From contig MGPV01000054.1 in the NCBI GenBank assembly GCA_001797615.1, forward strand, positions 1 to 34,561: a DNA stretch of 34,561 nucleotides. Reading direction: 5' to 3'. The stretch comes from Deltaproteobacteria bacterium GWC2_65_14. GTDB lineage: Bacteria > Desulfobacterota > Deferrimicrobia > Deferrimicrobiales > Deferrimicrobiaceae. The translations under genes were made by a program, and so were the position numbers. A model generated the notes under the pieces. The model saw only the letters and a list, made by a program, of their open reading frames with translations, was not told where the DNA came from and searched no databases. Positions within the stretch are counted from its first letter, which is position 1; every line of letters begins with the position of its first letter. Below are positions 30,465-34,561 of this stretch, one piece after another.

Positions 30465-33263
30465 TCACCCCGGGGGATGTCCGGGCCGGTCTCGGTCGAG
30501 CACCTCCCGGACGGTTTTCGCGAGGAGATCGGCCCGGTAGGGCTTCGCCAGGAAGGCGGACGCCCGCGAAGCCTTTCCCGCGGCCTCGTCGTCCTCGGAG
30601 CGGTAGCCGCTGGAAAGAATGACCCTGGCCCCGGGGTCCAGCTTCCGGATCCGCTCCAGGACCTCCATGCCGGAGAGGCGGGGCATCGACAGGTCCAGGA
30701 GGACGAGGTCGATGCGCTTGCGGTACCGGACGAACATGTCGATCGCCTGTTGCCCGTCGGCCGCGGAGAGCACCGTGTAGCCGTGGATCTCGAGGACCTG
30801 CCGTCCCAGGTCCCGGATCATCTCCTCGTCGTCGGCCAGGAGGACCGTCTCCTTCCCCCGGTGCGAACCGGGCTGTTCCGGGACCGCCTCCGTCTGCCTC
30901 ACCGGCTCCCCCGCCCGGGGGATGTAGACACGGAAGGCGCTCCCCTCGTCCCTGCGGCTCTCCACGTTGATCCAGCCGGCATGCTGCTTGACGATCCCGA
31001 AGACGGTGGAGAGCCCCAGCCCGGTCCCGCGACCCATCTTCTTCGTGGTGAAGAACGGCTCGAAGACCCTCCGCCGGGTCTCCTCGTCCATCCCGACACC
31101 GTTGTCGACGACCGAGACCATGACGAAATCCCCTTCCCGGGCGTAGGGGAAGGAGCGGAGATACTCCTCGGGAATTGTCACGTTTTCCGCGGAAACCCGG
31201 ATGCGGAATCCGCCCGGCGCCGTGGGGACCTTCCGGGCGCCGTCCAGGCACTCCGTCACGGCATCCCGCGCGTTCACGCACAGGTTCATCAGCACCTGTT
31301 GGAGCTGCCCGGAATCGGCGGCGGCAGGCCACAGGTCCGGCGGCGAAAGCATGTCCACGCCGATCCGGCGGTCGATCGTCTGGGAGAACAGGTGCACCAC
31401 TTCCGCGACCACGCTCCCCACGTTCACGGCCTCCCGCTCGATCGGGGAGCGCCTGGAAAATTCGAGCAGCTGGCGGACGAGCCGCGCCGCCCGCTCCGAC
31501 GCATGGATCGACTCCTCGACCGGCGCCAGGGCCGCGGACTCCGGCTTGAGCAACCTCCGGGCGAGATCCAGGTTCCCCAGGATCCCGGTCAGGATGTTGT
31601 TGAAGTCGTGCGCCACCCCGCCCGCCAGCGTCCCCACCGCCTCCAGCTTCTGCATCGCGACGACCTGCCGTTCGAGGCGTCGCCTCTCGGTGACGTCGGA
31701 CCCGACCGCAAGGATGGAGGACGGCTTCCCTTCGGCGTCCGGCAGGACGGCCGCACTCCACACGATGATCCGCTCTTCCCCCCGCCTGCCCAGGAGTGGG
31801 TGCTCCGACGCCCCGGGGTCCTCCCCGCTCCGGATCCTCTGCAGCAATTCCTCGAACGGGGCCCGGTGCTCGGCGGGGACGAGAAGGTCGGCCGCGCGCC
31901 GCCCGAGCACCTGCCCCGCCGTACGGCCGGTGACCTCCTCGCACATCCGGTTGAAGAGGAGGATCTCTCCGCCCTGCCCCAGCTGCATCACGAGCGACCC
32001 GGAGACATCGAGAATCCTCGAGGAAAAATCCCGCTCCGACCGCAGATCCTCCAGCACCTGTTTCCGCTGCGTGACATCCCGGAGGAGGATCATCCCGAGA
32101 GGCCCCTTCATCAAGGGCTCGTAGTCCTCGTTCCGGTTCCCCCTCGGCACCCAGGTCACCGTCAGCTCACAGGGGAAGACACTTCCGTCCTTCCGGAGGA
32201 TCGGTATCTCCCGGGCTTCCTCGCCGTTCCCCTGCTCCGAAAGACGCTCCATGCGGGCGAACTGACCGTCCCGAATCTCCGGGGGGAAGATCCGGGCATA
32301 CTCCGCGCCCGCGAGTTCCTCCGCGGAAGGGTATCCGAGCATCGCGGCGCCGGCCGGGTTGACCCGCACGATCCTTCCTCCCCGGACCAGGATCACCCCG
32401 TCCCGCTGGGTCCCCAGCAGGTCGTCGTAGGCGTTCTTCGCGCAGACGAACATTTCGTGCCGCCTGGCGCTGAGGATCGCGGTCTCGAGCCTCGACGCCA
32501 TCGCCTTGAGGGCCTCGACCTCGAGCGGGTCGAAGGCGTCCTCGACCGACCCGTACAGGGTGAGCGCCATCGGCGCCATCCCCCTCCCGCGGATCGGGAA
32601 GGAGGCCGCGCTCCGGATCCGGAAGGTCTCGAAGACCGCCTTCCAGGGGAGGAGGGCGGCGGCGCCCCGGACCCGGTTCACCACACAGGGCATGCCGGTG
32701 CGGATCGCCTTCCCCGTCGGCTCCTGTCCCTCCGGGGAGTCGTCCCAGCGGACGGCGATCCTCGAGAGAACGCCTCTTCCGGATCCGGCGCTCCGCGCGA
32801 CCCGGACCCTGCCGTCCGGGTCGCCGGCCCCGATCCATGCCAGCGCGTAGCCGCGGCCCGAGGTCAGCCCCTCGCAGACGAGGGAGAGGATCCGCTCCTC
32901 CTCCAGGACGCCGATCACCGCCTGGTCCACGCCCGCCATGACGCGGAAGCGGCGCTCGAGCCGTTCCTTCAGGAAGAACCATCGCTCCGTGAGGGCGAAC
33001 CCGGTCGCCAGGAGGAAGGAGATCCCGAATTCGACCACCGGGACGGTCATCTCCCCGCTCCCGGGATCCCCGTCCGCCACCATCTGGACGATCGACCCGA
33101 CCCGGAGCACTCCCATCAGCAGCAGCGCCAGCGTGACGAGCGACCAGTGGGGCCCCAGACGCTTGTGGTAGACAAACCGCAGGGAAAGCGCGGCCGCCAG
33201 AAACTGGAAGATCGCGGATACGACGAAGAGCGCGATCAAAATACCCCCCCGGGACTGCGGCAT
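30465..33263 (-). CDS. Membrane-bound hybrid histidine kinase (GAF-PAS-PAS-HisKA-HATPase-REC)
   Basis: Sensor kinase of 932 residues. About three N-terminal transmembrane helices (10-30, 42-60, 75-95) are followed by a GAF-like domain (about 115-265), two PAS domains (about 285-410 and 415-535), HisKA with His552 in GGVAHDFNN, HATPase (NLCVNARDAV, GTGLGLST) and a receiver with Asp857 in VLLDLSMP. There is no DNA-binding output. The ATG at 33263 lacks a well-placed ribosome site; an in-frame TTG at 33239 follows a G-run by 4 nt and would give a protein starting at IALFVVSAIFQF. It lies upstream of amtB on the same strand, but 178 nt and a separate promoter intervene. Confidence 0.92.
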   Translation of the reverse strand: MPQSRGGILIALFVVSAIFQFLAAALSLRFVYHKRLGPHWSLVTLALLLMGVLRVGSIVQMVADGDPGSGEMTVPVVEFGISFLLATGFALTERWFFLKERLERRFRVMAGVDQAVIGVLEEERILSLVCEGLTSGRGYALAWIGAGDPDGRVRVARSAGSGRGVLSRIAVRWDDSPEGQEPTGKAIRTGMPCVVNRVRGAAALLPWKAVFETFRIRSAASFPIRGRGMAPMALTLYGSVEDAFDPLEVEALKAMASRLETAILSARRHEMFVCAKNAYDDLLGTQRDGVILVRGGRIVRVNPAGAAMLGYPSAEELAGAEYARIFPPEIRDGQFARMERLSEQGNGEEAREIPILRKDGSVFPCELTVTWVPRGNRNEDYEPLMKGPLGMILLRDVTQRKQVLEDLRSERDFSSRILDVSGSLVMQLGQGGEILLFNRMCEEVTGRTAGQVLGRRAADLLVPAEHRAPFEELLQRIRSGEDPGASEHPLLGRRGEERIIVWSAAVLPDAEGKPSSILAVGSDVTERRRLERQVVAMQKLEAVGTLAGGVAHDFNNILTGILGNLDLARRLLKPESAALAPVEESIHASERAARLVRQLLEFSRRSPIEREAVNVGSVVAEVVHLFSQTIDRRIGVDMLSPPDLWPAAADSGQLQQVLMNLCVNARDAVTECLDGARKVPTAPGGFRIRVSAENVTIPEEYLRSFPYAREGDFVMVSVVDNGVGMDEETRRRVFEPFFTTKKMGRGTGLGLSTVFGIVKQHAGWINVESRRDEGSAFRVYIPRAGEPVRQTEAVPEQPGSHRGKETVLLADDEEMIRDLGRQVLEIHGYTVLSAADGQQAIDMFVRYRKRIDLVLLDLSMPRLSGMEVLERIRKLDPGARVILSSGYRSEDDEAAGKASRASAFLAKPYRADLLAKTVREVLDRDRPGHPPG

Positions 33264-33408
33264 CCGACGATTCCGATGCCCCCTGCTCCTTCATAACGGA
33301 AACAGGCTGGGAAATCCTTACCTTTTTTTCATCCGCTGCCCCCTCCACATGGACCCGATTCCTCGACGACGGCGAGGAGGAATAGGATCCACGATTTTTC
33401 CAGGGGGT

Positions 33409-33437: not shown

Positions 33438-33488
33438 GGTTTCTGCAGCGGCAAAACGGAGTTCCTATTCCAGGAGGAGAGGTGTGCC

Positions 33489-33959
33489 ATGGGGCAGGTC
33501 GTCCACACGTCGCGGATCACGATCACCCGGGAGAAGGGTCCCACCCGCAAGGCGATGATCGAGGGGTTCCCGGAGCCGGTCTACTACGGGGTCCACGGAG
33601 GGATCAAGAAGTTCTACAAGATCGAGCCGGAGAAGGAGCATGCCGCCACCCTCGACCACATCGTCGGCGCGGTCGGCGGCTGAATGATGGGGACACTGGC
33701 CGCGGTGCTGGCCAGCAGGAAGATCCCGACCTTCGGCGACCGCTACCGGGCCGACATCGAGGGGGAGATCGAGGATGTCGCCGGGGTGATGAAGATCGTA
33801 AGGATCCGGGTCCGGTACACCCTGAAGGCGCCTCCGGGCAAGAGCGCGGAGGCAAAAGAAGCGCTGGGGGCCTACCTCACCCAGTGCCCCGCCGCGATGA
33901 GCGTTTCGGGATGCATCGAACTGTCCCACGAGATCGACGTCACGGAACTCGAGGCCTGA
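33489..33959 (+). CDS. OsmC-family peroxide/thiol protein, probable selenoprotein with UGA (Sec) at codon 65
   Basis: OsmC proteins reduce organic hydroperoxides with a reactive cysteine pair. Two frames (33489-33683 and 33684-33959) join without shift through a single in-frame TGA at 33681-33683, giving 156 residues. The TGA falls in HIVGAVGG-X-MMGTLAAVLA, exactly where OsmC proteins have their peroxidatic Cys; the second Cys (C133 in TQCPAAMSV) is present. Both sides read as intact OsmC sequence. A hairpin with GGU in its loop lies 20 nt after the TGA. The ATG at 33489 has a strong AGGAGGAGAGG site. An ordinary nonsense mutation or sequencing error is the alternative, but a random hit at this one codon is unlikely. 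Confidence 0.82.
33696..33715 (+). promoter_or_regulatory. Bacterial SECIS-like hairpin
   Basis: CTGGCC (33696-33701) pairs with GGCCAG (33710-33715); a further G-U pair closes a loop with GGU at 33704-33706, starting 20 nt after the UGA. Bacterial SECIS elements need a small loop with an early G about 16-37 nt after the UGA, and this one fits. Confidence 0.7.
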
Positions 33960-33978: not shown

Positions 33979-34561
33979 ATGAGAGCCGCCCTCTGCGAAA
34001 CGTTCGGAAAACCGCTGGCCCTGACCGATCTTCCCCGCCCGGAGCCCGGGCCGGGGGAGGTGCTGATCCGCGTCAAGGCGTGCGGGGTCTGCCACAGCGA
34101 CCTTCACCTGGTGGACGGCGACTGGAAGGACTGGGGGACTCCCCTGCCGATCGTCCCGGGGCACGAGGTGACCGGGGTGGTGGAGAGGGCGGGCGACGGC
34201 GTCCCCGGGCTCTCGGCCGGGGACCCGGTCGGCGTCCCCTGGATGCAATATGCCTGCGGGGGCTGCGTCCCCTGCCGGTCCGGCGCGGAGATGCTCTGCG
34301 CCGCGCAGAAGAGCACCGGGATCACGGTCTACGGCGGCTACGCGGAGTACCTCACGGCGCCGGCCGCCTTCACCCACAAGATCCCGGAGGGGCTCGACCT
34401 GGTCGCCGCCGCTCCCCTCCTGTGCGCGGGGATCACCGTCTTTTCCCCTCTGCGGCGCGCCGGAAACCTGGCCGGGAAGACCGTCGCCATCGCCGGGATG
34501 GGCGGACTGGGGCACCTCGGCGTGCGGATGGCCTCCGCCATGGGGGCCCGGGTGGTGGCGA
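33979..34561 (+). CDS. Zinc-dependent alcohol dehydrogenase (3' end outside window)
   Basis: Medium-chain NAD(P)-dependent alcohol dehydrogenase; 194 residues are visible of an expected 340 or so. The catalytic zinc ligands are C38 (GVCHSD) and H62 in PGHE. The structural zinc site has four cysteines (C93, C96, C99, C107). The nucleotide fold begins at VAIAGMGGLGHLGVRMA. The ATG at 33979 has GGGAGG 7 nt upstream and lies 19 nt after the OsmC stop, so the two are probably co-transcribed. It is like the AdhP/YahK group, but the exact substrate cannot be told. Confidence 0.92.
   Translation, partial: MRAALCETFGKPLALTDLPRPEPGPGEVLIRVKACGVCHSDLHLVDGDWKDWGTPLPIVPGHEVTGVVERAGDGVPGLSAGDPVGVPWMQYACGGCVPCRSGAEMLCAAQKSTGITVYGGYAEYLTAPAAFTHKIPEGLDLVAAAPLLCAGITVFSPLRRAGNLAGKTVAIAGMGGLGHLGVRMASAMGARVVA

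Follow-up and report, generated by a model that had tools for sequence, protein, structure and literature searches.

A predicted OsmC-family selenoprotein and its UMMGT branch in a Desulfobacterota-type phylum

Is the TGA that interrupts an OsmC-like reading frame in Deltaproteobacteria bacterium GWC2_65_14 a stop codon, a defect, or a codon read as selenocysteine (Sec)? The DNA analysed here, hereafter the window, is a stretch of 34,561 nucleotides, and the frame lies on its forward strand, from an ATG at 33489 to a terminal TGA at 33957-33959, with a Shine-Dalgarno sequence, AGGAGG, read directly in front of the start codon (33472..33477, +). Translation shows a single interruption, the TGA at 33681-33683 (+), which falls at codon 65. 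The original prediction had treated the two halves as one selenoprotein of 156 residues including Sec65, and translation, domain content and relatives uphold that claim: comparison of sequences leads us to predict, with a probability of about 95%, that 33489..33959 (+) is a genuine OsmC-family selenoprotein gene. The joined frame matches the Pfam OsmC domain (PF02566) with 37 bits against a cut-off of 27.5. It matched no NCBIfam model, nor did the OsmC-family protein match anything in a viral collection or, when searched as a single sequence with phmmer, in the PDB.

Several alignments place the UGA at the catalytic cysteine of the family, as had been proposed. A profile search of the PDB returned one match, the organic hydroperoxide resistance protein 6d9n, which is marginal (E = 0.06), and in its alignment U65 stands opposite the Cys of YSAC and C133 opposite the second Cys, in vCP. 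L063 (NSCIMTT ... NCLVS), one of the genome's own Cys-type OsmC proteins, gives this pairing too, as do distant OsmC homologues (GGCLLSSL ... YCIVS). Cys133 (TGC, 33885..33887, +) thus takes the place of the second OsmC/Ohr Cys in these alignments and is the predicted resolving partner of Sec65; this partner, which the original prediction had described as kept, is retained with the following proline of its CP motif in 34 of 34 distinct sequences checked. In an AlphaFold2 model (pLDDT 85, pTM 0.81) the protein takes up the OsmC topology, and Sec65 sits within its long central helix. Foldseek ranked E. coli OsmC and other structures of the OsmC/Ohr type as the closest to this model. The TM-scores against known OsmC chains reach only about 0.5, a moderate value, probably because those chains are domain-swapped dimers.

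The interrupting codon is shared far beyond the window. Within the same order, 13 of 24 genomes (the window's own included) encode the OsmC protein, and a single in-frame TGA interrupts it in all 13. In a sample of 395 genomes of the phylum 37 match the protein, 36 of them with an in-frame TGA; the remaining match is a short fragment with TAA. That it is the same codon applies to the relatives whose sequence was read out. Among these, codon 65 is TGA in 33 distinct relatives and further ones, TGC in one, and never TAA or TAG, and it lies in the conserved block HAATLDHIVGAVGGU-MMGT. The relatives that carry it span many families, with identity down to 33%, and a contig search added the isolate Desulfacinum hydrothermale DSM 13146 and a Nitrospiraceae MAG to the matches. 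Either a sequencing error or a recent nonsense mutation that has left a pseudogene could account for one stop within a reading frame of a draft contig such as this one. With the TGA conserved in about 35 further genomes, the D. hydrothermale isolate among them, both are therefore ruled out, and we regard this explanation as the least probable of those considered here. The segment past the stop also retains many invariant residues, and differences between relatives are in excess at third codon positions (48% after the TGA, 69% before it), which points to purifying selection on the downstream segment.

A UGA that is conserved could still be a real stop, with a 64-residue N-terminal product and a 91-residue product reinitiated directly after it, the two making up a selenium-free OsmC fold. 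The sequence offers some ground for such a split gene, since two ATG codons stand directly behind the TGA, and a standard gene finder would report the 91-residue ORF. Read directly, however, the ATG after the internal TGA has no Shine-Dalgarno comparable to the one at the gene start, and the Met-Met pair recurs as internal protein sequence in L030, a homologue with Cys in place of Sec. The restriction of codon 65 to TGA, to the exclusion of the other two stops, is likewise unfavourable to termination, and in the AlphaFold2 model a split at this point would cut the long central helix in two and cost the protein its redox residue. The constraint on synonymous sites in the hairpin that follows the UGA also speaks against this arrangement, which we judge very improbable.

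This hairpin, a predicted bSECIS, occupies 33696..33715 (+). Its stem (33696-33703 with 33707-33715) folds as CUGGCC-GC-[GGU]-GC-(U bulge)-GGCCAG, with 8 base pairs and one bulge, U33709, and the GGU loop (33704-33706) begins 20 nt past the UGA. These dimensions fit the published bSECIS model, which specifies a stem of 4-16 bp, a loop of 3-9 nt with a G in its first two positions, and 16-37 nt between loop and UGA (PMC13188914). Taken alone, the hairpin of the window is not above chance: a 55-nt fold gives z = -0.29, and among synonymous recodings of the window sequence 11% fold as well and 19% satisfy a simple SECIS rule. It stands above chance because of the comparative evidence rather than because of single-sequence energy. 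In 33 distinct Sec genes, whose GC content is 43-66%, the codons of Leu70, Ala71, Leu74 and Ala75 are CUG or GCC in 91-97% of cases. These stem codons have an entropy of 0.20-0.45 bits, whereas 34 other conserved columns of four- or sixfold degenerate codons average 1.61. Stem positions pair in 89-96% of cases in the true register; shifting the partner by 1-3 columns lowers this to 3-55%. Cells changed on both sides of a pair number 12 as against 3.8 in shuffles, a count that none of 500 shuffles reached, all these figures coming from related sequences in which the Leu-Ala protein sequence also constrains most stem columns. The SECIS-like hairpin with GGU that had been noticed 20 nt after the UGA is thus borne out by frozen codons and covariation in relatives.

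Together, the conserved TGA, the selection past it, the Shine-Dalgarno evidence and the hairpin effectively exclude read error, pseudogene and split gene. As a side observation, the codon of Ser138 (33900-33902) is AGC wherever a relative has Ser at this position (31 relatives), while every other conserved four- or sixfold column outside the hairpin varies; this is possibly another constraint at the nucleotide level.

The decoding of a UGA as Sec calls on dedicated machinery, and selA, selB, selC and selD were all found when the genome that contains the window (2.26 Mb in 67 contigs, stated completeness 100) was searched. The gene for selB scores 292 bits, above its cut-off, selA scores 564 bits, and selC, the tRNA-Sec, scores 74 bits against a cut-off of 47 and is also called by ARAGORN as tRNA-SeC with the anticodon tca (UCA). 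Two selD genes lie above the cut-off (L010 and L011, at G000:C52:815-1738 and G000:C62:52685-53494); each has one in-frame TGA, and both are therefore probably selenoprotein-type SelD. Among the OsmC-positive genomes of the phylum draw, selA is present in all except one that is 82% complete (G365). Because selA is found in 352 of 390 phylum genomes, however, its co-occurrence with Sec-OsmC is uninformative.

By sequence criteria, then, the locus has a Sec-type UGA at the predicted active site, a conserved bSECIS, the insertion machinery, both positions of the redox pair and the OsmC fold. In the mechanism that we propose, translation would begin at the ATG at 33489, and the hairpin at 33696-33715 would tether the SelB:GTP:Sec-tRNA(Sec) complex, which would insert Sec at the UGA at 33681 instead of letting translation terminate. 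The product would presumably be a domain-swapped dimer of the OsmC type, in which Sec65, on the long central helix, is partnered by Cys133. The selenolate of Sec65 would attack an oxidised or electrophilic substrate, by analogy with Ohr/OsmC most likely an organic hydroperoxide, after which Cys133 may resolve the intermediate as a U65-C133 selenenylsulfide and a thiol system may re-reduce it.

Hydroperoxide reduction is accordingly a reading by analogy, and the active site departs from that of Ohr, in which an Arg and a Glu near the peroxidatic Cys are catalytic. Arg14 and Arg20 are invariant among the relatives, and the position of the Ohr Glu, -10 from the Cys, is Leu55 here, with an invariant Asp56 at -9. 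With this Glu missing from -10 and an Asp at -9, Ohr-like peroxidase chemistry cannot be assumed. The selenoprotein may instead act on another substrate, such as a persulfide or a quinone or aldehyde adduct, or serve in thiol-disulfide or selenium/sulfur metabolism, an alternative to which we would give somewhat less than even odds. Outside Ohr, the roles of OsmC-family members are varied or unknown, which leaves room for it, as do the displaced catalytic Glu, the largely anaerobic lineages of the named hosts and a dehydrogenase neighbour that is conserved within one family only. Both redox positions of OsmC/Ohr are retained, on the other hand, and the enzymes that use Sec are typically peroxidatic and thiol-redox enzymes, two points that favour hydroperoxide reduction by Sec65.

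How does this protein relate to selenoproteins already described? The statement in the original prediction that OsmC-like selenoproteins had been reported from marine metagenomes was correct: three sequences with the motif UxxT came from the Sargasso Sea in 2005 (PMC1088965), and the GOS survey of 2008 added five OsmC-like selenoproteins (PMC2398784). A 2026 inventory of 119 families and subfamilies lists OsmC-like as one entry, with the motif UxxT, and treats different Sec-related motifs as distinct subfamilies (PMC13188914). The published family and the window protein have in common the OsmC domain (PF02566/COG1765), a Sec in the redox motif and a bSECIS downstream. The published members, however, are few, marine and of the UxxT type, whereas the window's branch reads U-M-M-G-T (UxxG) in nearly all members and is widespread across this Desulfobacterota-type phylum, a separation made by comparing motifs. 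None of the main-group Sec members read out has the UxxT motif: all have U-M-M-G-T except L053, with U-M-T-G-T. Since UMMGT differs from UxxT, under the rule of that inventory it would count as an unlisted, separate subfamily. We found no further report of Sec-OsmC in the open-licence literature; a groundwater MAG survey mentioned in that literature may include the UMMGT branch among unspecified candidates.

The Ohr/OsmC hydroperoxide reductases (PDB 1nye, 6d9n) share the fold, and their catalytic and resolving Cys align with U65 and C133, but they have Cys where the window protein has Sec, are about 10-19% identical to it and carry their catalytic Glu where it has Leu55. Two Cys-type paralogues in the same genome, L063 and L064, contain PF02566 like the Sec protein and have Cys at the position of Sec65, yet they have the motif CIMTT or CIMST, no TGA and another N-terminal region. 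The corresponding region of the Sec protein, GPTRKA / YYGVHGGIKKFY, looks specific to the UMMGT branch.

The locus is thus a real, well-supported new branch of the already known OsmC-like selenoproteins, and so a well-supported addition to the bacterial selenoproteome. We consider it probable that it represents a phylum-wide OsmC subfamily, so far unlisted, whose normal and likely ancestral state is Sec, because Cys forms are rare in close relatives, the bSECIS is frozen in the Leu-Ala codons and a sister group with ULTGT also uses UGA. Its representative (L065 / L081, at G048:C19:52143-52613) is only 33% identical and has TGA at the aligned position, within AAAAGU-LTGT; this protein, with its in-frame TGA in the motif AGU-LTGT, marks another and more remote line of Sec-OsmC within the phylum. 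For annotation the consequences are practical. NCBI-style annotation, which has no model for the UMMGT branch, would truncate or split the gene, an error that is likely in roughly a tenth of the sampled phylum genomes and that would deprive a redox enzyme of its active residue.

The single TGC at codon 65 belongs to L030 (PLGI01000039.1), a closely related protein from a bog Syntrophaceae genome that keeps selA. Its hairpin is broken and weak, at -5.0 kcal/mol where -11 is typical, and no longer contains GGU. We note it as a natural replacement of Sec by Cys, or the reverse, accompanied by a degraded SECIS-like hairpin; as a clean Sec/Cys pair with selA kept, it is useful for testing why Sec persists.

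The surroundings of the gene bear in part on the original prediction, which had the selenoprotein expressed with an alcohol dehydrogenase from a palindrome-controlled promoter. A zinc-type alcohol dehydrogenase ORF, cut by the end of the window (33979..34561, +), starts 19 nt downstream of the OsmC gene and is likely co-transcribed with it, and a homologue adjoins Sec-OsmC in 8 of 12 same-family relatives, with 79-83% identity. At the loci sampled outside the taxonomic family no adjacent dehydrogenase homologue was found in the flanks searched (about 1.5-3 kb). The association therefore stands within the family and not at those other loci: a common operon is plausible locally and does not form part of the general function. 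The proposed promoter fared less well, as the upstream inverted repeat at 33350-33391 (15 + 15 nt, 87%) showed no similarity in relatives by blastn. Also 5' of the OsmC gene is a divergent PAS/histidine kinase-response regulator gene (30465-33263, -), and many genomes of the taxonomic family likewise have a PAS-type sensor kinase, 49-56% identical, upstream of their Sec-OsmC gene.
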